Positions 4,626-32,423 of a stretch of DNA of 32,423 nucleotides are shown here, piece after piece (position 1 is the stretch's first letter; the number at the start of each line of letters is the position of its first letter). Location: the IMG/VR virus record IMGVR_UViG_3300031741_000009, positions 1-32,423 of that record. One strand, written 5' to 3'. The notes beneath the pieces were generated by a model. That model saw only the letters and a program-made list of their open reading frames with translations. It made no database searches and was not told the origin of the DNA. Made by a program: the position numbers and the translations under genes. The stretch is from a virus.

Positions 4626-6593
4626 ATGCCTAAAGGTAAAGACAAATCATTTGATAACCCTAAACTATGGAAGCTCGTATATAATTGGTACAAATCAGGA
4701 ATCAAGTACCGTGACGGTAGATCACTTCCTGAGATGTGGGACAAGTTCGAGCAGTATTACGACAATGAATACTGGAATGACATCCAGCGACCAGAGTATT
4801 TGACCGCAGCGAGTGACAACCTATTATTTGAAGACATCGAGACCATGCTCCCGGTGATCACATCAAGACCCCCACGTCCAGAGATAACACCCATACCAAA
4901 AGATACCAGCGAGGAAGCAATCAGCGCAGCCAATGAGTATGCCAAGAAGGTTCAGCGCGAACTCATTACGATATGGCACGATACCAGAATGATGGGGAAG
5001 CTCAGGACTGGATTCAGAGAGAACGGTATCAAAGGGACCTATATTCACAGGTCACTATATGACAAAGATAAGCATGAGTGGCAGGAAACAGTCTGTGACA
5101 TGCTTTCTATTATTCCAAACCCAACAGCTTTTGATATGGAAGGATGCTATAAAAGCTGGTTTATCTATGCCCCTGTTATGTCAGTACAAGACATATATAA
5201 AAGATATGGCGTGTGGGTAGAGCCAGAGAGCCAGGATGAAGCAGAGCTTGGCCAGTATGTCGGGATGCTTAAGAAAGGCGTCAGAGGTGTACAGCGGGTT
5301 CTTAATAACTCTTTTGGTAACGACAGTTCCACCAAAGACAAAAGAACAGGCTTTGCAGTGCTTATCGAGTGCTGGATGGCAGACGGTGAAGCAGAGATGG
5401 AAGAGGTCCTGGTAAACGAATACGATGACGATGGATCACGTATCGAAGTAGCCGGGAGTAAACAGTACGAGAGCACAGGTAATGGACAAGAGCAGATAGA
5501 AGTACCCGGCTCAGCAAAATATAAAAAGAAATCAGTACAACGTCGCAAATATCCAAACGGTAAGGTTGTAACGATTGCAAGAGGTGACAAAAATAGAATA
5601 TTAGAGGTTAAAACAAACTCATACGGACCACGCTTTCCATTCATGAGAACCGTGAACTATGAACGTGCTGGAGACTTCTACGGTACATCCGAGGGTAAGA
5701 ACATTGAGGACCAAAACTTGATGCTCAACCAGATCATATCGAACGTGAACGACAATGCGCGCTTTACTGGCAATCCACAGAAAGAGATTGTGCGAAGTGC
5801 CAAGGTTAAGGGTAACAGTGACGAGCCAGGTGCAGTCTATGAGTCAGACACTGGACAGGGTGTACGGAATATCGACCCGCCATCCATGCCTAGCTATATC
5901 CATAACTTTCTAATATGGCTACAGGGAAGCTCAGACCGCAAGACGGGTATCAATGATTCAATGCGCGGAATCAGTCAGTCAGGGGATAGTGGAATCAAGA
6001 CCCAAGCTCTTATCGCACAGGCAACAGGGAGATTACAGCCCAAGACAGCCTCATTCGTTGAGTTTTCACGCCAATGGTACGAGCACAAGGTATATGTGAT
6101 CAAGAACTTTTACCCAGACAACATCATCCAACAGGACAAAGATGAGCAGGGTAAACCAACCTATGAAGAGTTTAACCCATCCGAGGGCCGTGAATTGGAT
6201 CTCAAGGTAGATGTGAGCCAGATAAGTATGCTACCGTTTGATAACTATGCAGAGTTTGAAGAGGCGCAGCTTATTTATTCCATACCGAACCCCAAGACAC
6301 AGTTACCATCTATGTCCCTGGACCAACTGATCGAGACAGCCCCAGCACTAAGGGACAAGCAGCGTATCAAGGCATACAATGCAGACCTGGAAGAGCAGGT
6401 AGAGATACAGCAAGCTATTCAGGAAATCATGGACAACTCAGCAGACCAACAGGAAGCAGAGATAGCCCTTGTCCAATATATGAGTGACAACCCAGAAATG
6501 GCCGAGAAAATAGCCGAGATGGCGGGAATATCATTGCCAGCCGAGGGTGAAGAGCCCGGAGCGCCACCAGAGCCAGAGGGCCAGGCACTTTAA
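4626..6593 (+). CDS. Portal protein
   Basis: 655 residues. The portal dodecamer forms the DNA entry and exit ring at one capsid vertex and docks terminase and tail. Recognisable features are the N-terminal helical WDKFEQYYDNEYW segment, the ETMLPVITSRPPRPEI stretch typical of podovirus-type portals, a Tyr/Phe-rich wing domain, SIIPNPTAFD, and the stem-like PFMRTVNYERAGDFYGTSEGK-type segment near residue 340 followed by the IEDQNLMLNQIISNV helix. The acidic Gln/Glu-rich C-terminus (about 590-655) fits the flexible barrel or tail of portals. Length and position after terminase agree. Its TAA abuts the TTG of the next frame. Confidence 0.9.
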   Translation: MPKGKDKSFDNPKLWKLVYNWYKSGIKYRDGRSLPEMWDKFEQYYDNEYWNDIQRPEYLTAASDNLLFEDIETMLPVITSRPPRPEITPIPKDTSEEAISAANEYAKKVQRELITIWHDTRMMGKLRTGFRENGIKGTYIHRSLYDKDKHEWQETVCDMLSIIPNPTAFDMEGCYKSWFIYAPVMSVQDIYKRYGVWVEPESQDEAELGQYVGMLKKGVRGVQRVLNNSFGNDSSTKDKRTGFAVLIECWMADGEAEMEEVLVNEYDDDGSRIEVAGSKQYESTGNGQEQIEVPGSAKYKKKSVQRRKYPNGKVVTIARGDKNRILEVKTNSYGPRFPFMRTVNYERAGDFYGTSEGKNIEDQNLMLNQIISNVNDNARFTGNPQKEIVRSAKVKGNSDEPGAVYESDTGQGVRNIDPPSMPSYIHNFLIWLQGSSDRKTGINDSMRGISQSGDSGIKTQALIAQATGRLQPKTASFVEFSRQWYEHKVYVIKNFYPDNIIQQDKDEQGKPTYEEFNPSEGRELDLKVDVSQISMLPFDNYAEFEEAQLIYSIPNPKTQLPSMSLDQLIETAPALRDKQRIKAYNADLEEQVEIQQAIQEIMDNSADQQEAEIALVQYMSDNPEMAEKIAEMAGISLPAEGEEPGAPPEPEGQAL

Positions 6594-10577: not shown

Positions 10578-11576
10578 ATGGGTGCTCGTAGTGTAACGAC
10601 TATCATGACAGACCTAAGTATCGCAACTCGCGATTACATCCTACCTGGTATAGTATACCAGATTATTGAATCAAACTACCTGGCTAAACGCCTCTTGGGT
10701 AAATCCGAGGGTGTTGGCGGTGGAGATCGTATCCGTGTTGACTTAGAAGTTAGCAAGGAAACAATCAATTGGCTCAGTGAGTGGGACAAGGTTGTTTATG
10801 CTCCAACTGAGATTCTTGACGTAGCTTACTATGATTGGAAATGGCTTAACGGCTCAATTGTCCTTTCAGAGAAGCAAGTCCGTGTTCAGAACACGGGTAA
10901 AGAAGCTCTTTTTAATATTGTAAAAACCAAATCGAAAAATCTTGCCCGTACTTTCAAGCAGGGTTTCGGTGAATTGTTATTCAAGAACGCTGCAGCTGGC
11001 TCAAACCAGCCAGTAACACTGTATGACGTTATTGTTAACAACACTGGCACATTGGCCGGAATCAATCCTTCCGTAGATACATACTGGAAAGCTAAGAAAA
11101 TGGCTATTTCAGATGTTACCTATGATCAGTGGATGGATCCAGCACAGGTATACTACATTGAAGCAGTAATGCGAGCAATGTATGGCGCCTTGACCAATGA
11201 CTCAGAACACCCAACCTTGATCGTGACTACCCAGGCTATCTTTGATGATTATGAGATGATTTTACATACTCAGAATCGTTACAGCTCTAACTCTTCGGTA
11301 GACGGTGCTTTCGAGCGTCTGAAATTCCGTGGTGCTCAAATGGTCGTTGATAGTAACGTACCAGCTGGCCACATGTACTTCCTGAATGAGAACTACTTGA
11401 TGTTCAAGCACTCTAGTGCTATCAACTTCGAGATGGGTCCATTTGAGAAGGTTGCAACGGGTCAACACGCCTACGCATCAGAACTTGATTGGTGGGGCGC
11501 TTTTGTATGTACCAACCGTGCATACCAGGGCGTTGTTACAGGTATCCCCGTAACCACTATTTCGATAACCCCATAA
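10578..11576 (+). CDS. Major capsid protein (HK97 fold)
   Basis: 332 residues. It forms the icosahedral shell. Signs are the size, position directly after the scaffold and before a cement-like gene, and the sequence pattern: an N-terminal helical arm, a WLNGSIVLSEKQVRVQN strand segment, a long helix (LARTFKQGFGELLFKNAA), then HPTLIVTTQAIFDDYEMIL, FERLKFRGAQMVVDSNV and the typical MYFLNENYLMF near the C-terminus, all usual for HK97-fold coat proteins. There is no prohead-protease gene nearby and no delta-domain-like extension, consistent with a separate scaffold. GAGGTGATG precedes the ATG. Codon choice appears more even than in the flanking small genes. Confidence 0.9.
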   Translation: MGARSVTTIMTDLSIATRDYILPGIVYQIIESNYLAKRLLGKSEGVGGGDRIRVDLEVSKETINWLSEWDKVVYAPTEILDVAYYDWKWLNGSIVLSEKQVRVQNTGKEALFNIVKTKSKNLARTFKQGFGELLFKNAAAGSNQPVTLYDVIVNNTGTLAGINPSVDTYWKAKKMAISDVTYDQWMDPAQVYYIEAVMRAMYGALTNDSEHPTLIVTTQAIFDDYEMILHTQNRYSSNSSVDGAFERLKFRGAQMVVDSNVPAGHMYFLNENYLMFKHSSAINFEMGPFEKVATGQHAYASELDWWGAFVCTNRAYQGVVTGIPVTTISITP

Positions 11577-12608: not shown

Positions 12609-12613
12609 GGAAT

Positions 12614-12670: not shown

Positions 12671-12686
12671 GGGTACTTCGGTGCCC
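12671..12686 (+). promoter_or_regulatory. UUCG-tetraloop hairpin 2
   Basis: GGGTAC (12671-12676) pairs with GTGCCC (12681-12686), one T-G pair, around TTCG with a closing C-G. TTTATC follows, a short T-run, so it could be a weak terminator. Two direct copies of ATTACAAA lie just upstream (about 12650-12666). The adaptor ATG is 23 bases further on. It is the second such hairpin in a 100-base gap. Confidence 0.55.
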
Positions 12687-12708
12687 TTTATCAGTTTAGG
12701 AACCTATC

Positions 12709-13509: not shown

Positions 13510-16500
13510 AACGAGCGATCAAACAGTTTGGCGGTGTCTGGACCAATGGTGACAAGGAAGATATCGGTAATGGAAATCTTCTGAGAAGCCGGAACATGCG
13601 TCCTGAGCTTGGTCTTATTAAAAAGACATACGGTGCTGGGGTTATCACAGACGATGGCGCTGTATGCCCTATTACGGTCGCAACGGGCTATTCTGTGATC
13701 AACATCTTCTGTTTTATTAATGAGAATCTACCAGACGGGCGCGAGTATATCGCGCTGATCCAGAAAGATTCAACCCTGCAAGTGTGGGTTTACAGGTTTG
13801 ATTCAGATTACAACCTGGCTAGTGGCGAACCATCTATACTCTTACCTTTTGGATCAGACTCGTTTTGGCTGATAAGCAGCTCAATAGATTTCAATAGTTA
13901 CGGGCGTGTACCCCTTACAAATATCTCTGTAACAGACTCAGACGCAGTTACTTACACGTTTGATAAAACCTTTTCAGCGCACAGGCCACAACCAACAACA
14001 AACATCTATGGTAATAAAACTGTATGGGCGGGTGTACCAAGCGATCTGGGGCAACCATTCTATAGCTCTGGTGACGCTCAAAAAAATGTTTTTAATGACA
14101 CAGTAGCATTTGATAATGGAATCATAAAAACATTTTTAAATACGGATGGTGACATAGCCATTCCTCGGTTTGCATACGTTAATAACGTTATGTTCGCTCT
14201 GGTTCAGGCAAAAGCACCCTCCAGCTCCAGTGATGATAAGCTATATTTTTATGATAGTGGATCATGGCAACTTATCGCTAAAACTGATTACGAACCCTTA
14301 TTCGATTCGGCTAGCGATTATATCCAGATATTACATATAGTTAAGAAGAACGATGAATTAGTCATGGTATACATGTTTTTTGATGCTAGTGCAGCCACAA
14401 ATAAATACATTTATAAATCAGCCAGGCTAAGTGATATACTAGGCTCAGATACATGGACAAATGATTGGACCAACGCCAAGGCAGCCCCGGTTCACATATC
14501 ATCTGGGTTCAACAACCAAGACTCTACTACATCTTTTGACCTGGACGCAACAAAAACAACTTTTTACATATCCGAGACTGTAACGGGCGTGGATAATCCA
14601 GGCGGGATGATAGTAACGGTCGAGGATGGCCAGTCAGCGGTAGAATCAGCAGTCCCGACCGGACTCTCTTCGAGCAATAGGTCTGGTGTCGGGATAGCTC
14701 TAGCAGATAGCAATATCTTTTTATACGTTAATAACACATCTGGGACGTTGCTTGAGGCATATTCCGCTTCATCATTACCAGTCTCGCCAACTTGGTCGAC
14801 AGTAACGCTACCATCAACCGTAACAGGGCTAGAAGAAGGCTCTGGATTTGTTTGGAAGGGTGCTGAATTTGTAGTTACTTCCACCGACAACAGCGGCCTA
14901 CTCGATGAGAGACTTGCTTTGGTTGCACAACTTTTTGATGGAGCTGATACATATTTTGCACTGGTAGAGTTTAACTCTGCTGCAGAATCATACACGGGTA
15001 CAACAAATTACTATTACATTACATCTGGATGGACAATCCACAGTCTATATGCTTCTCTTGAAGTTAACCGAACAGGCGTAAGCTATATTTCGAGTGTATT
15101 TGACACCGGGCTTAACTTATACAGGACGATAAAGATAGACCAGGATTTTGACTATGACGTTCTGATTTCACCGTCAAGTATTCTAGAAGGGCTTGGCCTT
15201 ATATCATACGAGATTGAACATGACCACATATCGTCAATAAGCTTTTTGTTCGGCTCAGATGATGGTGGGTCTTCTAATCCAGAGATCAAAAGAATAGTAT
15301 CGTTCGGTGCTAATCCTGCATGGGCTAGTTATCCGAGTGGGTTTAAGTACGAAGCTCAATTTGGCGCATGTATGGGTTGGAGGGAATTATTCCAGACCCT
15401 TGATATTGACCTTGAGTTTGTGCTATACCAGAAGGCAGACAAGAATCCTCATTTTATTGACAAGAGCACCCTACGTATCCTTGGTGGTGCTGGGAATGCT
15501 AATTCTATAGAAACCGTTTCAAAAATTACAATAAATAATGGTGGTGCAAACTACTTGGAAGGGTCATTGGTCTTTTCAGGTGGTGGTGGCTCAGGAGCGG
15601 TAGCAGTATTCGAGGTTTCGGCTGGTATCATAGATACTGTAATAATCTCTGATCGTGGATCGGGCTATACATCTAATCCAACGGTTGTATACGACCCGCT
15701 GAAGAGCCTTAACTGGTTACTCACAAGCAGAGGTACGCACCTTTATTCTGGAGATAACTATGTTAGGATCACGAAGGTAGGTGACTTCTATATTGTAGCA
15801 GGAACCAGTCATATACAATCATATAGTTTTGACGGTACATCATTAACGCTAGAGGACACGATTGCCCTTGGCTCATGTTATGATGTTACAACCGATGGGA
15901 CATTCATTTTCGCTTCCACAACAGCTCTTGGTGGGCGCATTTATGCTTATAGCATAGATGGGTCTGGGGTAATGGCCTACATTGACCACGAGACAGCATT
16001 GGGCGGAAAAGCAATTTGGTGTGATGGCACATATATCTATTCTGCGAGTGCCTCAGCTATGTCAAGTTTTAGTTTTAATGGTTCTGTATTCGCACTAAAA
16101 TCTGCCAAGACAACAGGCGGCAGTGGTGGTGAAGGTACAGCAATCTGGGGCGACGGGACCTATATATATTCACTATCCAGGGCAGGCGGCGTTGGATTGT
16201 CTGCATTCCCCGTGACCGCTGGTGTACTTGGGACAAAGATAAGTGACTACTCTGGACTCGGATTTGCCGATACTGGATACGATGTATGGGGTGATGGAAC
16301 AAATATTTATGTTGCAAATGACGCAGACGGACTTCGGGCCGTATCTTTTAACGGATCAACGTTTGCAGATGTAGGGCATATTGATGACGGTGGGGGCTAT
16401 AAAGGTGTCTATTACTATAATGGACATATTTACTGTGCGACTGGTAATCATACTGGTCTAAGGACATACGTTATAAATAGCGGTGTACTTTCTAATGCAC

Positions 16501-18647: not shown

Positions 18648-19222
18648 CCACAGCAGAGATGTTGACGCGCCTTAACAGCAGGTCGAATAATCGATGGACT
18701 CCGGCCCAGCTGTATCAGTTCCTGAATAGTGCTCAGGACAGGTTAATCATTGCGCTAGACCCACTCTACTTGACTGAGATCACGCGCATAGAGGGCGTAA
18801 CCGGAACAGCAGGTGAATACGACCTTGGAGCATTAAGCCCTGAGATATTCGGATCGGGGAATGTAGATGCGGTTAGGTTCAGAACATCTGGGATTTATTA
18901 CACATTTATGCCATTCGCTGAGATTAAAAAACTTGAGATAGCAACATGGGCACCTTCAGACGTAAGCCCATATCAATATGTATTCAAGAATGTCCTTTAT
19001 TTAAAGCAGGATGCTACGAATCCAGAAGTTGACATCTTTTACACTAGGAAGCCACTAGAGATAGAAAGTGGTGTTAACTCAGAGCTTGATGAGTCATTAC
19101 ATGAAATGATAGTCACGATAGCGGAAGGTATAGGGTGGCAGTCTGACCGAAATATACCGAGAGCCAATTTCGCATTTGTATCGGCAAAGATTATTATTGA
19201 TACCATGAACGGGAGGGCATGA
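18644..19222 (+). CDS. Adaptor-like protein, first of a tandem pair
   Basis: 192 residues. The pattern LTRLNSRSNNRWTPAQLYQFLNSAQDRLI, LTEITRI, RFRTSGIYYTFMPF, EIKKLEI and IFYTRKPLEI, with ELDESLHEMIVTIAEGIGWQ, matches small adaptor-type connectors found beside tail genes (an N-terminal helical segment, a beta core with the IFY-x-RKP strand, then a C-terminal helix). It is about 30-35% identical to the next gene by eye over most of its length. It overlaps both neighbours by ATGA. The two may form alternate rings or a heteromeric ring in the head-tail channel. Confidence 0.7.
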   Translation: MTTAEMLTRLNSRSNNRWTPAQLYQFLNSAQDRLIIALDPLYLTEITRIEGVTGTAGEYDLGALSPEIFGSGNVDAVRFRTSGIYYTFMPFAEIKKLEIATWAPSDVSPYQYVFKNVLYLKQDATNPEVDIFYTRKPLEIESGVNSELDESLHEMIVTIAEGIGWQSDRNIPRANFAFVSAKIIIDTMNGRA

Positions 19223-19818
19223 TGGACGTTGACGCAATGTTGTTAGATTTGTCAGTTCGGCTTGAAGACCCAGACGAAACCCTTTTCGATGATCCAAAGC
19301 GTCTTGAGGCCCTTAATGATGCACAAAGTCGATTGATAAACCTTCTTAACCGCGAACATCTGACTGAGATCACAGAAATAGCACTTACAAAGACTGCTGC
19401 TAATGGCACGTACTCGCTACTCGTACTCTCAGATCTTTACGGATCAGGCGGGTCAATATCTATGGTCAGGTATAATTCAAGTGGTGTATATTTTACACCA
19501 ATAAGCCTTTCAGCGATCAAAAAGTTAGAGATGACAAACTTTGCACCATCTATTACAGCACCATACTTTTTCGTATACAGATCAAAGATTTATACACTTG
19601 CTGGCGTAACAAGTCCGGTGATAGATATTTTTTACCTAAGAAAGCCAACAGGTCTAGTAGCTACTGGTGAATGTGACCTAAACCCAAAGCTACATGAGAT
19701 TCTTGTTAATATTGCAGCAGGGATTAGCTGGGGGATGAATGAAAAACTTGATCGCGCTCAAGCAGCACTTGATGAAGCTTACGCCGGAATTAAAACAATA
19801 AACGATAAAGGGGTATAA
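19219..19818 (+). CDS. Adaptor-like protein, second of a tandem pair
   Basis: 199 residues; ATGA overlap with the previous gene. Shared with its neighbour are AQ-x-RLI, LTEIT-x-I, an L-x-GSG-x turn, RY/RF-x-SSG-x-Y-F, IKKLEM, a FAPS/WAPS turn, DIFYLRKP, and the LHE...IA-x-GI-x-W helix, all in the same order, so this is a tandem duplication with divergence. Its end (DRAQAALDEAYAGIKTI) is more helical. Function inferred as tail or connector. A strong AAGGGG ribosome site at its 3' end serves the next gene. Confidence 0.7.
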   Translation: MMDVDAMLLDLSVRLEDPDETLFDDPKRLEALNDAQSRLINLLNREHLTEITEIALTKTAANGTYSLLVLSDLYGSGGSISMVRYNSSGVYFTPISLSAIKKLEMTNFAPSITAPYFFVYRSKIYTLAGVTSPVIDIFYLRKPTGLVATGECDLNPKLHEILVNIAAGISWGMNEKLDRAQAALDEAYAGIKTINDKGV

Positions 19819-19821
19819 GCT

Positions 19822-20742
19822 ATGGTACTAGCAACCGGAACAATCTTAGGATTAACAGCACTGGCCAAGGGTGGGAAGTCAATCTATGACTACTACCAGA
19901 ACAAGAATAATGCACCAAGCCCCTACGCACAGACCGAACAGGGCAAAAGATTGGCAGAGCAGCAGAAAACAGGTGCTTATTCTGGGCAGATCAGAAACGA
20001 AATGATCGGTGGGGTGAACAGGGTTGCCAGCGCAAGTGCAGAGACTAACCGAGCTAATTATATTGGCCGGATGTCAAACCTACTTGGGACAAGTGTTGCA
20101 TCCCAAAGAGGGTTGAATGAGATAGAAGCAGGCCGTGGGCGTATCGTAGCGAACGAGGCTGGAAGGGTAGGCGCACTTAATGCACAATCCAAGATAACGG
20201 CAGGTGATCAACTTGCAGCCGGGACCGACCAAAGAGCCGATCAGATATTACAGTATAATCAGCAGAACAGACAACAACTTACTGGTGGGCTAGTAGATGC
20301 AGGTGTAGGATATGCGACTGGGTATATGGCTAATCAAGCAACCGTGGCCGCGCAAGCCCACGAGATTGAACTAGCCGGCATTAAGGCGGGTGCAGGTGGT
20401 GGCATTAAGGCGGGTGCAGGTGGTGGCACCGAAGCAGCACGTATAATGTCCCAGATACAGGGTGGAGAAAGCCCAGCGCCTAATGTCCCAGCAGTACTTC
20501 CACAAGATAGTCAGTCGCAAGGTGGTGCGCCAACAGTAGACACAGGCCCTAGTACACCATCGGCGCTCGATACTTTTAGCCCTGAGCAGCCCCCAGTTAC
20601 GTCAGACCAGACTAAACAATTACAGGATGAGCTAATAGCCGCTGGATACCAGATCGACTTTGGAAGCACTGGTAGTGGATATGGTGTATTTGGTCCACAA
20701 ACGATAGCCGCCCTACAACAATACCAATACGCAACAAGGTAA
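19822..20742 (+). CDS. Internal/ejection-type protein with peptidoglycan-binding C-terminus
   Basis: 306 residues. A short hydrophobic N-terminus (TGTILGLTALAKGG) precedes a long Ala/Gln/Asn-rich helical part (about 40-185) of the kind found in phage internal virion proteins. Then come a Gly-rich repeat (GIKAGAGG twice) and a disordered Pro/Ser linker. Residues about 262-306 (KQLQDELIAAGYQID, FGPQTIAALQQYQ) match the peptidoglycan-binding domain 1 pattern. It may be released with DNA and anchor to the cell wall. No catalytic lysozyme motif is seen, so the cutting enzyme would be elsewhere. AAGGGG lies before the ATG. Confidence 0.7.
   Translation: MVLATGTILGLTALAKGGKSIYDYYQNKNNAPSPYAQTEQGKRLAEQQKTGAYSGQIRNEMIGGVNRVASASAETNRANYIGRMSNLLGTSVASQRGLNEIEAGRGRIVANEAGRVGALNAQSKITAGDQLAAGTDQRADQILQYNQQNRQQLTGGLVDAGVGYATGYMANQATVAAQAHEIELAGIKAGAGGGIKAGAGGGTEAARIMSQIQGGESPAPNVPAVLPQDSQSQGGAPTVDTGPSTPSALDTFSPEQPPVTSDQTKQLQDELIAAGYQIDFGSTGSGYGVFGPQTIAALQQYQYATR
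20377..20424 (+). repeat. 24-bp perfect tandem duplication
   Basis: Two adjacent identical 24-base units (20377-20400 and 20401-20424) sit inside the ejection-type gene. Each encodes GIKAGAGG, in frame, so the repeat lengthens a Gly-rich linker without breaking the protein. Perfect identity suggests a recent slippage event, so copy number may vary between relatives. Confidence 0.9.
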
Positions 20743-20751
20743 GAGGTTATC

Positions 20752-21648
20752 ATGCCCGCACCTAGACCACCTTCACCAGCAGAATTAATTGCCTACACCA
20801 AAGCAACGGGAAAGCTTTATACTACCGTCCATAACGATGAGCATTACTTCAATCTAACAGGTGAACGGGTTCCATGGTATAAAACACCTACTAAAAAGCC
20901 AGAAACAGCCTTCGAGCAGAACCGGCGCGAAGTTAATGAGAAAAAGATACTTGACCGCCGCAAGAAGCCAACAGTAGAAGAGCAGGAAGCCACGGCTATA
21001 ACCAAAGCCACAGGTAAGCTCGATCGTGATGCGGCACTCGCAGAAGCTATAGCTAAAAATCGAGCTATGATAAAAGCGACCGAGAAGAATAGGCTTGGCG
21101 AGTCATCTAAATCTGCTATTACTAGGATTGGTAAAGATGCTAGTACGTTAGCGGATGAATATACAGGTCTTGGCGCCAAGATTGACGAAGAGAGATTGGC
21201 AATGGATGAAGCCGCAAACGACACAATCCTTTCCTGGTGGCAGCGAAATAAGCCTTATGGACCAGATGCACCAAAAATAAGAGCGACCAATAATGCAAGG
21301 GACCAATTTGATCTAGGCGCTCGTAATGTTGAGTCAATGCAAAACCAACGCGACCTTGTTTATGGTGCTCATGAAGCCAAACTGGATTCTGTAGACATGA
21401 TATCCAGAGCCGCGGCTAACGGGATAACAAACACGGGTCCACTTTTTGAGCAAAGAAGGCAGGCCACAGAGTATTTAGATCAACATGAGAAACTGCTAAA
21501 TCAGAGAGTATTAGAAACCATCCAACAGAGTCTAGGTTTTATGCCAGCCCAGGAATACCTTATGACACCAAAAGGGCAACAATTATATGAGATGGTTGCT
21601 GCCAGCGTAAAGGGTAGCGTTGATGCTGATTTAAGCGGAGGACAATAG
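20752..21648 (+). CDS. Probable internal virion protein, helical
   Basis: 298 residues. The chain is mostly helical and charged (KKILDRRKKPTVEEQEATAI, RDAALAEAIAKNRAMIKATE, RQATEYLDQHEKLLNQRVLE), with no membrane segment, signal or enzyme motif. KATGKL appears twice (about residues 18 and 84). It lies between a peptidoglycan-binding ejection-type protein and the giant polyvalent protein, the usual place of podovirus internal virion genes. AGAGG lies before the ATG. Function inferred from position and composition. Confidence 0.68.
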   Translation: MPAPRPPSPAELIAYTKATGKLYTTVHNDEHYFNLTGERVPWYKTPTKKPETAFEQNRREVNEKKILDRRKKPTVEEQEATAITKATGKLDRDAALAEAIAKNRAMIKATEKNRLGESSKSAITRIGKDASTLADEYTGLGAKIDEERLAMDEAANDTILSWWQRNKPYGPDAPKIRATNNARDQFDLGARNVESMQNQRDLVYGAHEAKLDSVDMISRAAANGITNTGPLFEQRRQATEYLDQHEKLLNQRVLETIQQSLGFMPAQEYLMTPKGQQLYEMVAASVKGSVDADLSGGQ

Positions 21649-21649: not shown

Positions 21650-24600
21650 GTGGGTTTTACTGCCGAGCAAGCAAGAAGATTTTTAGATGAATCTATTGGT
21701 GACGGCCTTCCAGAAGGCGAGGACTTACACTCTAGATATGGGTCGTTATCATCAGCATTTGACCAAGACGATAAGCCCAATGAAGAATACATTGGCTTTC
21801 TAGATAAAATTAGCGATCCAAACGCTAACTTTAATTACGACCCAAAACAAGTAGCCCGCGACTACGCCATGTTTGAAGCCGCGAAGAAACTAGTATCTCG
21901 CAACCAAAAACAGCAAGAAGCAGCCTTAGCAGAAGACCCAAAAGCTCAGAAGGAAATGGACGAGCAGGAAGAACTACTCGCCACACAGAACGATCCAGCG
22001 CGGAACGATGCTATTATGAATAGTCGCGATCCATTGAAGACCCTTTCAGAGCTTCAACAGCTAAAGGCGAAGTTAAAAGATGAATCGCCAGAGGTAAGAG
22101 CAAGAATTTTCCAAGAGTTTTACGATAAGACTGGACTAATGAAGTCGGGCGACTTGCCAGGCTCTTTAACAGGGGAACAGCAAGGTGAAGCACCTGTGAT
22201 AACAGGCGCATCACGAAACGATTACATAATGGGGAGCAAAAACCCACAGAAGGCCCTAGCAGAGATACAGAAGGTAGAGAACCAGACCAAAAACGAATCA
22301 CCTGAAATACAACAACAATTTTTACAAAGACTTTATGCTGGTGAATTTGATGAAGAAAACGAATCTCAACAGGAAACAGACCCATGGGTTGAAGCATCCT
22401 ACATGCCTACCCCCGCTTCATACCTGCAATCAATAGCAGAGCGTGGAGCTGAATCACTTGCATTAAATACAGCGAGACAGGCAGACCTACTCGGTGCGGT
22501 TGAGATGGAAGCACTTACGACCCCAGAGCAGGTTGCGAGAGAACGCGAGTTTGGTTCACTAGCTTTTGATCCAGACCATGATCCTGAATATCAAGCAGCT
22601 AAAGAGGTTACGGAAGCAGATCGCCAAGAAGCATCACGCAGAAATAAAGAAAGTTTTGTTATAAAAGGGTTACAGAATGTTCGAGCAAAGGCAGACGCTT
22701 TTGTAGCAGAACACCCAGAGTGGGAACAAAACCAAATTGAATTATCATGGGACACAGCTTTTGACCCATCGTATTTAGCGCAAACCATAGGTATGATAGC
22801 CCCATCAATATTCGGTGCTATCTCATCTGGAATGATTGGAGCAGCAGTAACAGGCGGAAACCCAGCAGGAGCAGTAGCGGGCGCAACAGGGTACACATAC
22901 CTACTTGAAGCAGGGATGTTCTATTCAGAAGCGGTAGATGCAGGTATGGACCCAGTTGAGGCAAGAAAGATCGCAAGGATGGTCGGTGGAGTTAATGCGG
23001 CAATGGAAATGTTGCCCATGAATAAACTTTTTAATACACACGGGTTCAAAAAGCTATTTAATAGAAGATTAGCCACCTCGCTTGCTGAAAAAGATATTAC
23101 CAACATAACCACTAAAGAGGCTCTGTCTCAGGCGGTTACAGAATCACTTACAGAAGTTGGACAGGAGATAACAACTATAATCGGTGAGATTAAAGGTTAT
23201 CGTGATGACATAACTCTTGAAGAGGTAGAGAAACGATTAGTCGAGTCTGGCTATGGTGGATTGATTGGTGGACCTACTACGGTAGTTGGCGGTGCGGTTG
23301 TTAGTAATATAAAAAGCGGAGTTAAGAAAACACCAGGGATAGGTGAACGCGAGTCATTGGACTTAGGCTTCACTCCAGACACCGATATTGCCCCACCAAC
23401 TACCCCAGAAACCGTTAAGGTCGGCGAAACAATCCCAGAAAAGAATGAGCTTACTCATGAAGACTTTGTACTATCAGAGATAGCAGATAATTTTGCCAAG
23501 ACACAGGCAGAGAAACCAGCGTTCCAGGAGATAGACGACAGTGAGCCCGCACCAGAGACTCTTAATGATATTCAGAAACAACTCCATGAGCAGAACAACC
23601 AGCTCAAATCCCTAGTAACTGACAAAAAGATTGAGATTGCCAGACTCGAAGAAGCCCTTGAGTACGAGCAAGAGATTACCAATAACGAAGATGGTATTGA
23701 CGAAGCCGAAACAGGACTTAGGGAAGCAATATCCGAACTTAATGAGATCCAGGTACTCAAAGACGATGTTGTAAATAATATTACTCACAACAACCAGGTA
23801 TTGAATACAGCCGAGCAGAAGCGCAAACCTGCCAGGACTAAAAAAAGAGCTATCCCACAGGAGCCTTCCCAAGAAGATAGCAAACCTGCCTCAATTGAGG
23901 CTATTCAGGGTGTGGAGGGGGACGAAGTTGCTCCGCTTAGTACCCCCACCCCTGTTAACAAGTTATTGTATAGAGGTGCAGCGCAAGATGGTATAGAGAA
24001 TAAGTTTGGGACATGGGCAACACCAGACAAGGGAGCTGCTCAAGAATATGCAGATTTACACGAAGGAGGAACGGTTACACGGGTAGAGACTCAAATTAAA
24101 AATGTAGCCGAGCCAGAAGATGTGAGATCTATCGCTGAAGGATTAGGGCTGGATGTTTCCAAGGAAGCTGATTATTGGCTAGTTACTCCCGAACAGTCTG
24201 AGAATGCAGAGCCAATACTAGAAGAACTTATTAAGCGTGGCTATGATGCAGTTCACATGCCACAAGGGGAGGATTTTGCCCCGTCAGGGAAAGCAATAGA
24301 ATCCTATCTTATCTTGAGAAAAGGAGTAGCAGATGAACGTATTGAAACGACAGAAGCTATTGTTAAGCCAGTTGAAGCTATTGAAGTCGAGAAGCCAAAG
24401 TTCAGCGACCTTACAAAAGAAGATCAAGACAAAGAAGTAGCCACCTTTATAGAAGCCTATGACAAAGAAAACGGTTCAGGTGGAGCATACGAAGCCACCA
24501 AGAAGTACGGTATATCACTTGTCCGGGCCGATAAGATAGAGAAGGGGCAGCCAGTAGCCTCAGAAGAAGAGTTCCGGTCGAAAATGAATAAGATCGTAAC

Positions 24601-27600
24601 CGAGAAGGTTGACAAGCTCAATACAGAACCACGGAAGCAGGATAAGGTCGGAACAAAAAGAAATGTTGCCGGTGATCCAGCAGAATTAACCCGTATCGAG
24701 ACGGACGAAGCCAACGTTTCCTATGAGTATTGGGAAGGCGAGAAAGCCTATATCCGGGTTTATGATGTAGACACTGGTAAGTCGATTAGTATAAATACAT
24801 ACCCAGATAAAGCCAAGGGTCTTGCTGCATACGACAAAGCTATAGAAGATGCTGGGATTACAACTCAGGCAGACAAGAAGCCCGTTGTTTCACGTGAAAC
24901 ACCTAAAGAATTAAAGCAGAAACAGGTCGAACCTTTAAAAGTTGAGAAGAAATCACCAAAAGGCGGTACTATAGACTGGCGCGAAGAGTCTATAGAGGGG
25001 CTGATGGACAAATATGGGGCTATCCAGAAAAAGACAAAAACCCCATATCTTTATGTTACCTATGACCCAAGCAGCAATAAAGAGGATCGCCGTCGTGCTA
25101 TTGTCGAGAATGATGGCATTCGTATTGACAAGATTGTTCCCACCGAGAATGGAGATATTAAGGGTTTTGTATTAGGCCCCCATTCTGCATTTTATTCTGT
25201 AGATGAAGTAGAGTTAAGTTCGCATTCCAGAAAACGACTGGATAACGCTAACGAGAAAATTGGACTTGGCGACGAATATAAAGAGCTAGGTCTTAGTGCA
25301 GAGGATGAGGCCAGTCTCAGGAAGCAAGTTGGCCAGGCTACTAAATTTTTTGGTAGTAGGGCGCTTGACCTTTACGAGCTTGGAGGTATAGACCAGGATC
25401 TAGTATCTAAGCATGTACCGCAGGGATACTTGGGAGATTCCAGAGCTGATGAGATATTGAGGAAGGCCACGGCACTAGCAGCCTTTGAGCAGTTTGGGTA
25501 TGATGGTGATTTTGAGAACAAGATAGACAAGGGCAGAGCCTATGGTGACTTACTTAAGCGGCTAGAAGAAGCCAAGCAGTCACCAAAAGCCACTGATACA
25601 GTGACGGCTTACGAAACGATTGAGCAACTATCCGAAGAAGAACTAAAAGCAGGAGGTATGACAGATGCCGAACTTGAAGAAATTGCAAAGACCGCAGCAG
25701 AGTACGACAGGCAAGCAGAAGAAGCCGAGTCGGACATACTTGAAACTTTTGCGCCTGAAATTGATGCTATTAAGGATCAAGACACCAGAGAGCGAAGCAC
25801 TGCAAAAGAAGATCGGGATTTAGAACAACTAAAATCTGAGATCACAGCACTTGAGGCACGTATCGCCAAGGGTGATGAATCGGTAAAATCGGAAATCCAA
25901 TCTGGCCTATTCCCTTCAGGAGCAGACCAAGATCAATTATTCAATACCACGGATATGTCACTCAACAGTATCTCCAAGATACGTGCTGAGCTTGAGGACA
26001 AGCGTAACCAGTTAGCAGAGTTAAAGGCCGAAGATAAGACCAAGGCCGAGGTAGAGGCTGGTAAATCTACTGGAGAGCTTGAGCTTGAGCCAAAAAAACA
26101 ACTCACCAAGCCCGTTAAGGCCAAGAAAGAGCTGAAGAAAGACTACGCGACGACTATTGCTGCAGCTTATGTAAAAGCTGAATTAGCAGAGAGCAACGAC
26201 GGCGCTACTATTGTCAGAAACTATGCGAACACATTTATAAAGCCACTTGCAGGACGAATCAACAATGCCCCCTGGAAAGCCGGGAAAAAATACGCTGAAT
26301 GGAGAAAAGAGACACCAAGCCGGGAATTAGCAAAACTTATTAAACACGGGCTTATCCAGAATGCTTTTGATGCTGATGGAAATTCATATTATGCGCCGCT
26401 AACTGCTAAACGTCCAGCCGATCTAATGTCAAAGGATGAAGTTGATAAGGTCATGGTGGTATTTAACCGAGATGGCGAAAAGGCATACCGAGCATTACTA
26501 TCAAAAGAATATTCACATGTAAGAGGTGTTACTAAGGAAGCCTCAAGGGAAGACCTAGCCCAAGCAGAATGGACCAGAGAGAAGGTCATCGCAGCCCTTA
26601 AAGCAGATACACCTATACCGGAAGCCGTCACCAATAAATTTCCTAGTCTTGTAGCTCAATACCAATACCAGCTAGATATTGATAAGACCAAAAAAGATAT
26701 TGCCAATGAAGAGGCATATATAAGGAATCTTAGCGAAGAGCTCCCCAAGCCACTCAGGGATGTTAAACGTGCAGTCGGGGTAGCCGAGATTAATGATGCA
26801 ATCACACTCGCCCAGACACAAGACCCGGATAAAACATACAATTCATTCGATATTGAGAAACTACACGGAACCTACGTGCAGGCCGTCCAGAACCTAACCC
26901 TGCTAAACGATAAGCTCAAGACACTGAGCGAGCGCCAGAGGCAGGTAATCGCGCAGGACAAGAAGCTAGAGAAGGCACCGCCATTAAAACTTGAGACAGA
27001 AGAAGTTAAATCGATTTCTGATCTGGGAGACAAAATTGGGGGCGCAAGAAAAGACTTGTCAACCGGAAGGTCACTCAAGAAGAAAACAGCCGCGAAGCCT
27101 AAAGGGTGGAGGTCAAGATATAACATATCCCAGATTGCTGCAGAGTCAAGTTTTGCAGGCGGGATAACTAGAGAGAGCCCCAACGTTGGTAAGTTTGCGA
27201 TATTCGATAAACGCAAGAAAAAAACTACATGGAGTGGTATCCCAAGACCTATCGGGAATAAGTATTTTGATACAGAAGAAGAAGCCAATGAGATGATGCC
27301 ACTATTGGCCGTTGCTGAAAAGCATCGTGTTTATGGCACACTTGATAAATTCACTATCTACAGATCAGTCACGGACCGTAAGCGTGTTCGGGTCTTGAAA
27401 CAAGAGTTTGATACCCGCGAAGATGCCATGAAGTACATGGCTACACATGCAGAGGAATTGCTTGACACCAAACTAACCTTTGGCGAAGAGATACTACCAA
27501 GACCAGATGTTGTATTCAGGAATGGCGAAGAGCGCCGTAAAGGTAACGTTACAGGTGAATCATTCATGGACACCTTTGGTTTTAGGGGTGTTGAGTTTGG

Positions 27601-30600
27601 TAACTGGGTAACAAAGACCGAAGAACGCCAGGAAGTTATGAACCATGCTTTTGATGCGTTACTTGACATGGCCGAGGTGCTTGGAATCCCAGCAAAAGCA
27701 GTCTCGCTTAACGGTGATCTAGCACTAGCTTTTGGAGCAAGAGGACAGGGATTAAGTGGCGCTGCAGCTCATTATGAACCATCATTCGCAGTAATTAACC
27801 TCACGAAGATGGCCGGAGCTGGGCATTTAGCCCATGAGTGGTTCCATGCACTTGATCATTATGTAGGTAGACTTGACACAAAAGCAGGCGGGAGAAAAGC
27901 CGGGGCGCAACCTGGCAAGCCTATTTTTGAAGGGAAGTCAGATAGAGATATATTCGCTACCCATGGCTTTCAGTATGCAAGCAGATCAAAAGCCCGTCCA
28001 GAGCTAAGAGAGGCTTTCGATGAGTTTGTCAAGACTATGTTCACAAAAGGCCAGCAATACGTCGAGGACACACAGAAAGCAGATAAGTTCCTTGAGGCTG
28101 CAAGAGATGGTCTTGACCAGAACCTAAAATCTATACGAGATTATATAAGCACACAGCGAGAGTCAACATACTATAAACGCAATAATGCACCAGCTACACC
28201 AGAACAGTTAGCTGAATTTGATAAACTTGCCAAGATGTTGCTTGATGGGGAGTCACTTGAAACACAGTGGATGAACATTGAGGGGAGTAGATCACGGCTT
28301 AAAGGTCGATGGTCCAACGATGTGCTTGAGAGTATAAGCAAGATTTACAAGGCCGTCAGAGGCCGCACAGGCATATCAGAAGGCACTGGGGACAACCTGA
28401 TCGGTCGTTTAAAGGGCCCAATGGAGGCATACCAACAGCGAATTAAGATCATGAAGGATGCCGAGGGTGGGACTAAGAAGCTAAGGCGAGTGCCAACAGA
28501 CTTTAGGAAACAGGCTACAGCCGCAGACCAGGCCAAGTCAAGCGCGTATTGGGCAACCGAACATGAGATGGGTGCAAGAGCTTTTGCAGCCTATATCGAG
28601 GATAAACTGGCAGAGAAAGAGAATGTCAATGATTTCCTGGCCTTCCATGCCCATGGCGCAGTTATAGTCCCGATCTATCCAGAAGGATTATTCAGACCAT
28701 ACCCAGAGGGTGCGGAGCGTAAAGCTATCAATAAAGCATTTGAGAAGCTGTTTGATACCATTGAGACTAAGGAATCTGAGTCCGGAATAGAGATGTTCCA
28801 AAAAGATTCACCGATGGAAAGGGCTACACCTGAATGGAATGAATCAGCTATAGCTATCATGCAGGGTGTATTTGCCGGAGCTAAAGTTGTGAAGACTAAG
28901 CAGGGATGGGCGGAAGCCACCGCAAGGCTTGGGAAGAGCCCTAAATCAGCTTTTGGTTTCTGGGACCCAAAGACCGAGACTGTTTATATAAACCCAGATA
29001 AATCTAATAAAGATACTGTATTCCATGAATTTACTCACCCTGTTATAGAGCAGATGAGGCTCAATGACCCTGAATTATACGCGAAGGGAATGGAGCTTAT
29101 CGCTGGAACAGGGTATGTCAAAAACGCCATAGCCCAAGATTACGTTAATCCAATGAATGAGGCGCTGGTACAGGCTATTGGTGAGCGTGGTGCTTCAATC
29201 CAAGACCAGGCACAGAGAAATAAGTTCATCGCATGGGTCGAAGAATTATGGACTAAAGTTAAAGCCCAATTCAAGAAGACTTTTGGGTTAGATATGACAC
29301 TAGATGATTTCGTTAATAATGTCGCATACGGCATGAGGAATGGCGCAATCCAGGTGAAGGCTCAGAACCCCGTACCAATGGGTAGATCAGAGAGAAGAGC
29401 TAAGTATGGAAGAAACATTCCCAAGGACCCGATAACTTATGTAGCCGAAGATATCGACAATTCGGTTGGCGGGGTACAGATAGGAATGGAGTTTTCTGAT
29501 GATGTCCAGCCACTTGCCGAGCCGAGGGTGAGGGTTGGTCTTACACAGACCGGTGTATTTAAATCATCTATAGATAGAGTAAATAATATTTCAGACGCAG
29601 GCCGACTAGCTCAAGACTTTATAGGCAATAGAGCCCAGGAGAATATAATAGCCATAGTAATGGGCGATTCAGGCGAAGTTCTTAAGGTTATAAAACATAC
29701 CACTGGCGGCCAGGATGCGTCACAGGTCTTTCCTTCATCCGTTATCGGGTCAATCCTTAACGTGGATGGTGTGAAGTCAGTGTGGTTTTCACATAACCAC
29801 CCATCCGGAGAATACAAGGCATCCAAAGACGATATAGTGGTAACTGCGAAGTTCAGGGATATGCTGTCATTGACAGACATTAAGATGAACGGCCACTTTA
29901 TAGTTACTCCAAAGAATACAGGGCTATTGGATATAGAAACCAAAGACCAAATAGATCTACCAAAAATTGACAATAAAAAGTCTAACAAAAAGTCTTTTGA
30001 GCGAGAGATTGAATATGGAGACTTGGACGGCGTGCAGAAGATAGATGGACAATCTAAAGCATTGCCGCTTATACAGCGCATGAAAGCCAAGACTGGGTTG
30101 TTGTTGTTAAATACACAGTATCAGCCTATAGGCGAGCTTGAAATAACACCGGAAGAAATGGCGCAGCTTCGAGACAATAAAGCGCACCCAGCTTCTCGTT
30201 TTTACAAGGCGATTGAAAGAACAAACACAAAAGCCGTAATTATAAAAGCGAACAGGATCGATGTTGTCGCCGCAACCAATCTCGCTAAATTTATAAATTC
30301 TGCGACTGCCGAGGCATCGGATTACCAATCGCATCTCCAGGAACGCCAGTACCACGATGTAGCCGTATTGGATATAATGGATAATTCAGGATCGTGGCCT
30401 AGCGGGACACGTATTGCTGAACTGACGGGTCCGTTCAACCAGGAAGATCCAGAACCAGGCGATATATTCTATTCCACCCTAACCCAAGCCGTTGAGGGCA
30501 TGAAGCAGAACAAAGCCCCTGCCGATCAATGGATGGCCGTTATCCGCAAGCAGCCCGGAGTTAAGAAGGAAGAGATTGAATCTTCTGGGCTAGAGGTCTG

Positions 30601-32423
30601 GTTAAATGAGCAGAAGGGCAGTATTCCCCGTGAGGATATAGTCAACTTCCTGAAAGCCAATGAGATCACGGTTACTGAGACTGAGCTAGGCGGCAAAGCA
30701 CCAGCCAATGTTGAATGGGAAGACTTAACAGAGCCAATGCAAGAGATTGTATCAATGTATGAGAACAGGACTCTATCTGGTGGCGAGTTCATGGATAGTG
30801 CGACTAAAGAGGGATTCAATGTCGCTCTTAACAATGGTGCATATACAATTTCAAAAGGCAAAGTACCAGCCCCAACCCCAACCAAATTCGCCAACTACAC
30901 CACCAGCGGAGGGAAAAATTACCGAGAGTTGTTGCTAACTTTGCCGGAAGCACCAATAAGCGAAGATTACAATAATGTTTCCATGGAGATATTCGGTGAA
31001 AAGTATAGCGGACTATCTATCGCTGAGAGGCAACGTGTTGATAACGAAGTCGGGTTCAAGGAAACTCCTGCCCCATTCCGCTCAAGCCACTTCGACCAGC
31101 CCAACATCCTAGCCCACATCCGCTTTGATGAAAGAATTGACGCTCAAGGCCGAAGGGTGTTGCATATCGCAGAGGTGCAGAGTGATTGGCACCAAGCAGG
31201 GCGTAAGAAGGGGTATGCTACAGGTGCTAGGGATTTCTCAGGGCTTAATGCGAAGATCGAAAATGGACTCTGGAATGTCTATACCGCTGACGGCGACTTT
31301 GTTTCTACAGTTTCCCGAAAGAGGGCAACTACCGCAGAGGAGGCTATTGCTAAAGCTCAAAAACGAATTGATGATGGTATGGTCAGACTTAAAAACAAGG
31401 GCGTACCCGATGCCCCATTCAAGACCACCTGGCCACTTTTAGCCATGAAGCGCATGATGCGCTATGCAGCCGAGAACAACTTCGACGCAATAACTTGGGA
31501 CACGGGAGAGATCCAGGCTGATAGGTATGACCTGAGTAAGCAGGTAGATGCTATCGAGTTTTCAAAAAATAATGATGGCACCTATTTTGTCCGTGCATTA
31601 AAGGATGATAAGAATCTATTTGAGCGTGACAGACTTGATGAGAGTGGAGTAGAAGAATTAATTGGTAAGGATGCCACGGAAAAGGTTATATCGAGAGAAG
31701 ACGGGTCACTTACAGGTTTAGATTTAAGCGTAGGCGGCGAAGGCATGAAAGCCTTTTACGATGCAATCCTACCATCCACATTGAACAAATACGTGAAGAA
31801 GATGGGTGGGAGGGTAGGGCAGAGCACCATACCATTCACAGAAGCTAACGTATATATAAATGATGCCAGAGCAGTGAAGAATGAAGGAGATAACGGGTGG
31901 AGGGTAGAAACATTTAGCGAGGACAAGGGAGCGTGGACGCCGTTTTATGCCGCTAATGTTGGTGTAAGCAAGTCAATTGCCGAGAGTGTTGCTGCAAAAC
32001 AAAGGGATATTGCCAAAAAGTCGAAAACTGGAATAGAAGTCCCCCAGCTAATTATCACCCCCCAGATGAAGCAAATGGCTTTATCCGGACAACCACAATT
32101 CCAGGTCGACCCAAAGCGCACCCTAACCCGCCCATCCCTAAAAGACTTGACCAGTCCAGCGCGGGAGCTTGTAAGGCCGAAGCGAGCAAAGAGAGTCCTT
32201 GCCAAGCACGAACCAGGGGAAAGAGAAGTTAAGCGGGTTAAACAGCTTACCAGGAGCCTACCAGAGCAGGGTAAGAATGTCTTAGTTAAGAAACGGACAG
32301 CCACACTGATTAAGGATCAGATAAGATTTTTAAAACGTGGCGCACAGTTGGGTGCTAAAGACAAGGCCGAAGCTCTTGAAAAACTTAAAAAGTTAATCCG
32401 GGATTATGCAACCGAAAAACTTC
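21650..32423 (+). CDS. Giant polyvalent protein, 3' end outside window
   Basis: At least 3591 residues in one open frame from GTG 21650, with GGAGGA at 21637-21642 (spacing 7). In order: charged helical N-terminus (1-360); Gly-rich hydrophobic segments (about 370-450 and 533-553); coiled coil (637-725); ADP-ribosyltransferase-like module (about 770-890, LLYRG with R775, GTWAT); helical regions; LPD1-type module (FGFRGVEFGNW at 1976) with zincin HEWFH at 2062-2066 and possible third ligand E2306; second zincin-like site HEFTH (2459-2463) with E2504; RadC-like JAB with HNHPSG (2715-2720), S2725, D2728; a PADQW...GVKKEEIESSGL module (about 2938-3014); EVQSDWHQ block (3175-3182); basic tail. This is the architecture of phage polyvalent proteins thought to be injected with DNA. 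The end is not visible. Confidence 0.85.
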   Translation, partial: MGFTAEQARRFLDESIGDGLPEGEDLHSRYGSLSSAFDQDDKPNEEYIGFLDKISDPNANFNYDPKQVARDYAMFEAAKKLVSRNQKQQEAALAEDPKAQKEMDEQEELLATQNDPARNDAIMNSRDPLKTLSELQQLKAKLKDESPEVRARIFQEFYDKTGLMKSGDLPGSLTGEQQGEAPVITGASRNDYIMGSKNPQKALAEIQKVENQTKNESPEIQQQFLQRLYAGEFDEENESQQETDPWVEASYMPTPASYLQSIAERGAESLALNTARQADLLGAVEMEALTTPEQVAREREFGSLAFDPDHDPEYQAAKEVTEADRQEASRRNKESFVIKGLQNVRAKADAFVAEHPEWEQNQIELSWDTAFDPSYLAQTIGMIAPSIFGAISSGMIGAAVTGGNPAGAVAGATGYTYLLEAGMFYSEAVDAGMDPVEARKIARMVGGVNAAMEMLPMNKLFNTHGFKKLFNRRLATSLAEKDITNITTKEALSQAVTESLTEVGQEITTIIGEIKGYRDDITLEEVEKRLVESGYGGLIGGPTTVVGGAVVSNIKSGVKKTPGIGERESLDLGFTPDTDIAPPTTPETVKVGETIPEKNELTHEDFVLSEIADNFAKTQAEKPAFQEIDDSEPAPETLNDIQKQLHEQNNQLKSLVTDKKIEIARLEEALEYEQEITNNEDGIDEAETGLREAISELNEIQVLKDDVVNNITHNNQVLNTAEQKRKPARTKKRAIPQEPSQEDSKPASIEAIQGVEGDEVAPLSTPTPVNKLLYRGAAQDGIENKFGTWATPDKGAAQEYADLHEGGTVTRVETQIKNVAEPEDVRSIAEGLGLDVSKEADYWLVTPEQSENAEPILEELIKRGYDAVHMPQGEDFAPSGKAIESYLILRKGVADERIETTEAIVKPVEAIEVEKPKFSDLTKEDQDKEVATFIEAYDKENGSGGAYEATKKYGISLVRADKIEKGQPVASEEEFRSKMNKIVTEKVDKLNTEPRKQDKVGTKRNVAGDPAELTRIETDEANVSYEYWEGEKAYIRVYDVDTGKSISINTYPDKAKGLAAYDKAIEDAGITTQADKKPVVSRETPKELKQKQVEPLKVEKKSPKGGTIDWREESIEGLMDKYGAIQKKTKTPYLYVTYDPSSNKEDRRRAIVENDGIRIDKIVPTENGDIKGFVLGPHSAFYSVDEVELSSHSRKRLDNANEKIGLGDEYKELGLSAEDEASLRKQVGQATKFFGSRALDLYELGGIDQDLVSKHVPQGYLGDSRADEILRKATALAAFEQFGYDGDFENKIDKGRAYGDLLKRLEEAKQSPKATDTVTAYETIEQLSEEELKAGGMTDAELEEIAKTAAEYDRQAEEAESDILETFAPEIDAIKDQDTRERSTAKEDRDLEQLKSEITALEARIAKGDESVKSEIQSGLFPSGADQDQLFNTTDMSLNSISKIRAELEDKRNQLAELKAEDKTKAEVEAGKSTGELELEPKKQLTKPVKAKKELKKDYATTIAAAYVKAELAESNDGATIVRNYANTFIKPLAGRINNAPWKAGKKYAEWRKETPSRELAKLIKHGLIQNAFDADGNSYYAPLTAKRPADLMSKDEVDKVMVVFNRDGEKAYRALLSKEYSHVRGVTKEASREDLAQAEWTREKVIAALKADTPIPEAVTNKFPSLVAQYQYQLDIDKTKKDIANEEAYIRNLSEELPKPLRDVKRAVGVAEINDAITLAQTQDPDKTYNSFDIEKLHGTYVQAVQNLTLLNDKLKTLSERQRQVIAQDKKLEKAPPLKLETEEVKSISDLGDKIGGARKDLSTGRSLKKKTAAKPKGWRSRYNISQIAAESSFAGGITRESPNVGKFAIFDKRKKKTTWSGIPRPIGNKYFDTEEEANEMMPLLAVAEKHRVYGTLDKFTIYRSVTDRKRVRVLKQEFDTREDAMKYMATHAEELLDTKLTFGEEILPRPDVVFRNGEERRKGNVTGESFMDTFGFRGVEFGNWVTKTEERQEVMNHAFDALLDMAEVLGIPAKAVSLNGDLALAFGARGQGLSGAAAHYEPSFAVINLTKMAGAGHLAHEWFHALDHYVGRLDTKAGGRKAGAQPGKPIFEGKSDRDIFATHGFQYASRSKARPELREAFDEFVKTMFTKGQQYVEDTQKADKFLEAARDGLDQNLKSIRDYISTQRESTYYKRNNAPATPEQLAEFDKLAKMLLDGESLETQWMNIEGSRSRLKGRWSNDVLESISKIYKAVRGRTGISEGTGDNLIGRLKGPMEAYQQRIKIMKDAEGGTKKLRRVPTDFRKQATAADQAKSSAYWATEHEMGARAFAAYIEDKLAEKENVNDFLAFHAHGAVIVPIYPEGLFRPYPEGAERKAINKAFEKLFDTIETKESESGIEMFQKDSPMERATPEWNESAIAIMQGVFAGAKVVKTKQGWAEATARLGKSPKSAFGFWDPKTETVYINPDKSNKDTVFHEFTHPVIEQMRLNDPELYAKGMELIAGTGYVKNAIAQDYVNPMNEALVQAIGERGASIQDQAQRNKFIAWVEELWTKVKAQFKKTFGLDMTLDDFVNNVAYGMRNGAIQVKAQNPVPMGRSERRAKYGRNIPKDPITYVAEDIDNSVGGVQIGMEFSDDVQPLAEPRVRVGLTQTGVFKSSIDRVNNISDAGRLAQDFIGNRAQENIIAIVMGDSGEVLKVIKHTTGGQDASQVFPSSVIGSILNVDGVKSVWFSHNHPSGEYKASKDDIVVTAKFRDMLSLTDIKMNGHFIVTPKNTGLLDIETKDQIDLPKIDNKKSNKKSFEREIEYGDLDGVQKIDGQSKALPLIQRMKAKTGLLLLNTQYQPIGELEITPEEMAQLRDNKAHPASRFYKAIERTNTKAVIIKANRIDVVAATNLAKFINSATAEASDYQSHLQERQYHDVAVLDIMDNSGSWPSGTRIAELTGPFNQEDPEPGDIFYSTLTQAVEGMKQNKAPADQWMAVIRKQPGVKKEEIESSGLEVWLNEQKGSIPREDIVNFLKANEITVTETELGGKAPANVEWEDLTEPMQEIVSMYENRTLSGGEFMDSATKEGFNVALNNGAYTISKGKVPAPTPTKFANYTTSGGKNYRELLLTLPEAPISEDYNNVSMEIFGEKYSGLSIAERQRVDNEVGFKETPAPFRSSHFDQPNILAHIRFDERIDAQGRRVLHIAEVQSDWHQAGRKKGYATGARDFSGLNAKIENGLWNVYTADGDFVSTVSRKRATTAEEAIAKAQKRIDDGMVRLKNKGVPDAPFKTTWPLLAMKRMMRYAAENNFDAITWDTGEIQADRYDLSKQVDAIEFSKNNDGTYFVRALKDDKNLFERDRLDESGVEELIGKDATEKVISREDGSLTGLDLSVGGEGMKAFYDAILPSTLNKYVKKMGGRVGQSTIPFTEANVYINDARAVKNEGDNGWRVETFSEDKGAWTPFYAANVGVSKSIAESVAAKQRDIAKKSKTGIEVPQLIITPQMKQMALSGQPQFQVDPKRTLTRPSLKDLTSPARELVRPKRAKRVLAKHEPGEREVKRVKQLTRSLPEQGKNVLVKKRTATLIKDQIRFLKRGAQLGAKDKAEALEKLKKLIRDYATEKL

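Follow-up and report, generated by a model that had tools for sequence, protein, structure and literature searches.

The locus analysed here raises the question of what kind of protein a phage encodes in a gene so long that it runs off the end of its own sequence record. The window, i.e. the whole stretch of DNA that was analysed, is a linear IMG/VR record of 32,423 bases that ends inside this giant gene (Table 1). From the sequence it had been predicted that the gene specifies a polyvalent protein that is packaged in the virion and that may counter host defences early in infection.

Integrity and extent of the giant frame

Reading of the frame bore out that it starts at a GTG and continues uninterrupted to the right edge. 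At the base composition of the window, the probability that 3591 successive codons stay free of stops by chance is about 1e-95. The stop codon of the preceding gene (21646-21648) lies one base from the GTG, and together with the GGAGG sequence upstream this makes both the start of the giant and its translational coupling look natural. The frame is a real coding sequence under purifying selection, with a dN/dS of 0.08 over 1,049 codons relative to the contig L001 (dS 1.8, a value at which synonymous sites are near saturation).

The alternative that the frame results from an assembly join, or represents a decaying gene, is extremely improbable. The record does terminate inside the gene and the module order near residues 770-1290 is unlike that of L001. 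Nevertheless, besides the low dN/dS, three observations argue against it. L001 is collinear with the window over residues 1640-2688, and no sign of a break is seen as far as residue 2688, nor does the frame contain a stop. In the relative L021 a single frame holds both the RadC region and the block. Finally, complete relatives of similar length (2,678-3,737 residues) terminate in stops and likewise come after a smaller gene.

An extension past the right edge was sought among overlapping records, but none was found that reaches the end of the giant, also not by exact match of the last 30 bases. The last 197 residues had no relative in the viral contigs. In 105 complete frames a median of 999 residues (quartiles 595-1355) follows the C-terminal block, so that the full protein of the window is predicted to comprise some 4,000-4,750 residues. 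By analogy with its relatives, it may perhaps carry an LPD38-type C-terminal end.

Table 1. Features of the giant gene and its neighbourhood (positions in the window; residues of the giant protein)
Feature	Residues	Position	Strand	Remark
Portal protein		4626..6593	+	phrog_156, E 1.2e-15
Major capsid protein		10578..11576	+	phrog_9953, E 8.4e-37
306-aa alanine/glycine-rich protein		19822..20742	+	candidate small ejection protein; peptidoglycan-binding-like C-terminal end
298-aa protein directly 5' of giant		20752..21648	+	candidate second ejection protein; L001 orthologue 41% identical
Shine-Dalgarno GGAGG		21637..21641	+	8 nt 5' of GTG, read in sequence
Giant protein gene		21650..32422	+	GTG start, 3591 codons, stop-free to record end
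Hydrophobic segment	382-400	22793..22849	+	hydropathy scan; within glycine-rich N-terminal region
ART-like module	772-889	23963..24316	+	weak; missing from L001 alignment
Conserved motif DLGDKIGGARKDL	1791-1803	27020..27058	+	precedes LPD5
LPD5	1899-1975	27344..27574	+	Pfam E 2.5e-5; 25.0 bits, just under the cut-off of 27
Zincin-like metallopeptidase 1	1956-2078	27515..27883	+	HEWFH at 2062-2066
LPD1	2292-2374	28523..28771	+	Pfam E 4e-20
Zincin-like site 2	2445-2576	28982..29377	+	HEFTH at 2459-2463
RadC-like JAB domain	2645-2755	29582..29914	+	Pfam E 3.6e-15
C-terminal block	2940-3394	30467..31831	+	predicted GNAT-fold domain with two inserts

Domain composition and class membership

The description that fits the giant best is that of a phage-type polyvalent protein in the sense of Iyer et al. 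(2017). It combines disparate domains in one chain (LPD1, RadC, the zincins and, near the cut-off, LPD5) and is encoded near late virion genes, with terminase, portal, capsid and tail genes upstream. Moreover, it matches the phage-giant family PHROG 30335 (E 8.7e-116) as well as PHROG 616, and relatives that share its core or its C-terminal block carry ART-PolyVal, LPD38, LPD5, LPD1, InPase and RadC domains. InPase (PF18823) was looked for but not found in the record of the window, and is present in L002 and L003.

The two zincin-like sites and the RadC-like JAB site that had been predicted are indeed there. The first zincin matches the NCBIfam model CLCA_X with a score below the cut-off of that model. 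The phage-clade zincins are characterized by a His at the end of strand 2, an HEXXH motif and an Asp three residues on (Iyer et al. 2017, PMC5512222), and the stretch AHYE...HEWFHALD (2062-2069) has the same arrangement, including the Asp three residues downstream, as a match in sequence. The region of the second site is common to the giant and gp74 of Tenacibaculum phage Gundel_1. The RadC-like domain scores 56.4 bits against a Pfam cut-off of 22.1 and contains a complete JAMM metal motif, HNHP-x6-S-x2-D (HxHP-x6-S-x2-D type), at residues 2715-2728. It was also the only part of the giant that was matched, weakly, in a phmmer search against the PDB. The region directly after it (29945-30424, residues 2766-2925) resembles a degenerate second JAB copy in the relatives L074, L056 and L126; support for such a copy is weak in these relatives and it is undetectable in the window, and it was rejected as a feature of the giant.

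A comparison with the phage polyvalent proteins described by Iyer et al. (PMC5512222) reveals common LPD1 and LPD5 domains, a phage-clade zincin, an enzyme mosaic and a late-gene position. There are also differences. RadC was found only in the polyvalent proteins of conjugative elements (Iyer et al. 2017, PMC5512222), whereas the phage-type giant of the window carries it; the C-terminal GNAT-like block differs from the RimI-like GNAT type described there; and a canonical ART-PolyVal domain was not detected in the giant. The giants of Stx-type podophages (PHROG 616, about 2.8-3.2 kaa) are similar in size and have an LPD5-zincin-LPD1 core that is 42-45% identical to that of the window, but no similarity was detected before residue ~1684 or after ~2545, and the RadC domain and C-terminal block of the window are unmatched in them.

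The ART-like module (residues ~772-889), also part of the original prediction, is weakly supported and no more than plausible. A home-made ART profile, built from relatives, gave 12.2 bits for its best stretch versus 3.3 bits for the top-listed of 200 shuffles, whereas the Pfam scan of the giant yielded no ART match. In addition, the His of the H-Y-D active site of ART-PolyVal (Tox-ART-HYD2) is replaced by Arg in the giant (LLYRG), although YRG is also present in two true ART-PolyVal members. The module is missing from L001, in which another, shorter sequence takes the place of residues ~770-1290, although the shared core is 79% identical. With the N-terminal 917 residues as query only the L001 contig was matched, and the first 1,780 residues gave no match in the phage collection.

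As polyvalent proteins include antirestriction factors (PMC5512222) and RadC is frequently associated with DNA conflict, the main role of the giant could be a dedicated antirestriction activity like that of P1 DarB/DdrB. Yet, the Pfam and PHROG scans of the giant revealed no DdrB-ParB, DarA, ArdC, methylase or helicase domain, whereas ddrB-ParB does occur in some relatives, and we consider this role improbable.

A widespread C-terminal block with a predicted GNAT fold

The C-terminal block, noted earlier as a stretch seen in other phage giants, proved to be both real and widespread. A search with residues ~2940-3394 returned 115 related stretches in viral contigs, and a profile search returned 168 in genome contigs that belong to many phyla, amounting to about 280 viral and genomic loci. 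The block is without any Pfam or NCBIfam model and its profile gave no match in the PDB. Among 14 block-bearing giants, LPD38 and ART-PolyVal were each present in seven, LPD5 and LPD1 each in six and RadC in three; InPase was found in block-bearing giants as well. ART-PolyVal occurred in half of the 40 viral records searched (20), nearly all of them block-bearing. This co-occurrence makes the block part of the polyvalent network. One giant, of Dolichospermum phage Dfl-JY45 (L238, 6868-14031), contains two full copies.

Two cyanophage records named lysin match part of the block, and the label 'endolysin' reaches the giants via PHROG 7348, which contains the block and spans it in 56 of the 60 members. 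This PHROG is in fact a giant profile of 2564 positions and no lysozyme family matches the block, so that an identity as endolysin was rejected.

Structure prediction suggests that the block is likely to have a GNAT fold. An AlphaFold2 model of the block of the window reached a pLDDT of 82, and one of a compact homologue (94 aligned sequences) a pLDDT of 91 with a pTM of 0.82. In Foldseek, spermidine/spermine acetyltransferase (SSAT) ranked at the top (probability 0.99-1.00, E 0.011). In VIA-align, all of the 50 top rows were GNAT-fold chains for both models (Z 7.0-8.9; 7.6-8.8 in one of two runs), with mostly 105-130 residues aligned; a Z near 8 is middling, and values in this range can mean only a common arrangement. 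Even at rank 50 the Z was 7.0-7.6, where according to the tool models that lack a clear match usually give 4-5. Furthermore, an independent comparison of the block profile with 26 GNATs placed alpha3-beta5 in the same register; its score of 22.8 exceeded that of all 60 column shuffles (maximum 17.5) but is weak in absolute terms, with an hhalign probability of only 3-5%.

In GNATs the CoA loop lies at the end of beta4 and the catalytic Tyr is often found on the last helix. Two motifs of the block are invariant or nearly so among 137 sequences: E-x-QSDW (3175-3180) at the end of beta4, and GMKAFYD, with Tyr3370, on the last helix. The canonical CoA loop Q/R-x-x-G-x-G/A is not present directly before alpha3; instead, QSDWHQxGRKxG ends beta4 and is followed by a variable insert. 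Thus, the block shares its predicted fold, the strand-helix register and the conserved last-helix Tyr with GNATs such as SSAT, NatD and TacT/AtaT, and differs from them by its altered CoA loop, its two large inserts and the lack of a match to the Pfam GNAT models (in any of 60 block members). Acyltransferase activity of the block is possible.

The block might also represent another mixed alpha/beta domain of similar arrangement, possibly a binding module. The missing sequence-family match, Foldseek E-values that were all above 0.01 and an alignment of about 110 of 302 residues at a Z near 8 fit with that idea. It is set against the agreement between two models, the exclusive recovery of GNAT-fold chains down to rank 50, the profile register and the position of the conserved Tyr. 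We regard such a domain as the less probable option, albeit one to be taken seriously, and continue with the GNAT fold. The block, with its predicted GNAT fold, is what is new here.

Genomic context and probable packaging

The giant is the last gene of a podovirus-like late cluster, in the order terminase small subunit, a 555-aa protein, portal, major capsid, tail proteins, the 306-aa and 298-aa proteins and the giant. By place and content the 555-aa protein is probably the terminase large subunit. The gene at 1084-1701, between the two terminase-like genes, encodes a 205-aa product that has an extended hydrophobic segment and is possibly holin-like. The adjoining adaptor-like genes at 18644-19222 and 19219-19818 are paralogues (37% identical), and the pair is also found in L001. 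The gene for the 306-aa protein contains an exact 24-bp tandem repeat (20377-20424; repeating peptide GIKAGAGG). No tRNA or Rfam RNA was found in the window.

The gene order of the window is kept in L001. The level of identity with L096/L001 varies strongly: the capsid protein is 92% identical and the core of the giant 79%, whereas most tail and ejection-type genes reach 41-55%. The core thus appears to be unusually well kept or recently exchanged, and the patchwork conservation of the region 10578-21648 and the core suggests module exchange. The product of 12117-12608 is, like the capsid protein, 92-94% identical to its counterparts in L096/L001. The 1713-aa tail-region protein (13506-18647) had no tblastn match in 50,697 phage records, and its counterpart in L001/L096 (1374 aa) is only partly similar.

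The position of the giant behind two ejection-type genes resembles that of the presumably ejected proteins T7 gp14/gp15/gp16 and the N4 virion RNA polymerase, where a very large late gene also follows smaller genes for internal proteins. No sequence similarity between these proteins and the giant was detected, and the T7-like three-protein reading is based on gene order, size and composition. Neither did Pfam and PHROG scans of residues up to 3591 yield an RNA polymerase or transglycosylase match. As far as context goes, packaging of the giant is best supported by analogy with Pelagibacter phage HTVC028P, where the genes are arranged in a T7-like order: tail tubular A, tail tubular B, acetyltransferase, internal protein A, gp35, gp34, internal virion protein and tail fibre. 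The block-bearing gp34 (954 aa) thus lies between internal protein A/gp35 and an annotated internal virion protein. Taken together with the two ejection-type genes of the window, this order leads us to infer that the giant is probably a component of the virion that enters the host along with the DNA. A role in countering host defences, as originally proposed, is conceivable. Literature searches for virion proteomics of polyvalent proteins brought up no usable data, with none for this phage or a close relative, and no mass-spectrometry backing for the label 'structural protein' was found in the text on Gundel_1.

Proposed role of the giant

We consider it probable that the giant is a phage-type polyvalent protein and that, of the three internal (ejection) proteins in a podovirus-like virion, it is most likely the largest. 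Its synthesis would be late, with translation coupled to that of the preceding 298-aa gene, and would be followed by packaging and, together with the DNA, by ejection into the host. One or both of the zincin modules would then cut the chain in the cell, after which the modules could act separately. The freed RadC-like JAB domain may act on nucleic acid or protein, the ART-like module would also be released, and the C-terminal GNAT-fold domain may, early in infection, acylate an amine of some host molecule. The data show the frame, its selection, the domains, the gene context, the wide recurrence of the block and its predicted fold. What we infer is that the giant is packaged, ejected and self-cleaved, as well as any catalytic activity and target; ejection, self-cleavage and the action on host targets follow the analogy with the polyvalent class.

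A structural or tail-associated protein that stays with the particle would be compatible with a position behind the tail genes and a pair of small genes of virion type, with the endolysin label of the PHROG that covers the block, and with the annotation of the Gundel_1 relative as structural protein. The enzyme-like modules would then serve assembly, through self-processing, or passage of the envelope. However, it is hard to see a structural role for the JAB, LPD, ART-PolyVal, InPase and GGDEF-type domains of the giant or its relatives, the combination of modules varies among relatives as expected of effectors, and no lysozyme match was obtained for the giant with Pfam or PHROG, as was the case for transglycosylase. 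A structural role therefore seems unlikely, and we favour the ejected polyvalent protein.

Giant phage proteins that contain polyvalent domains occur commonly, yet hardly any have been tested. The present analysis identifies a concrete module that they share, with about 280 loci, a predicted fold and invariant residues, and provides a natural small context for it in gp34 of the cultured pelagiphage HTVC028P. In addition, a misleading 'endolysin' label is corrected and RadC is shown to occur in phage-type polyvalent proteins. More tentatively, and as a possibility that we would not yet favour, the block may found an undescribed family of effectors with an acyltransferase fold, injected by hundreds of phage giants at the start of infection. 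If so, the altered CoA loop and the inserts may mean an unusual donor or substrate, for instance host tRNA, polyamines or a defence protein.
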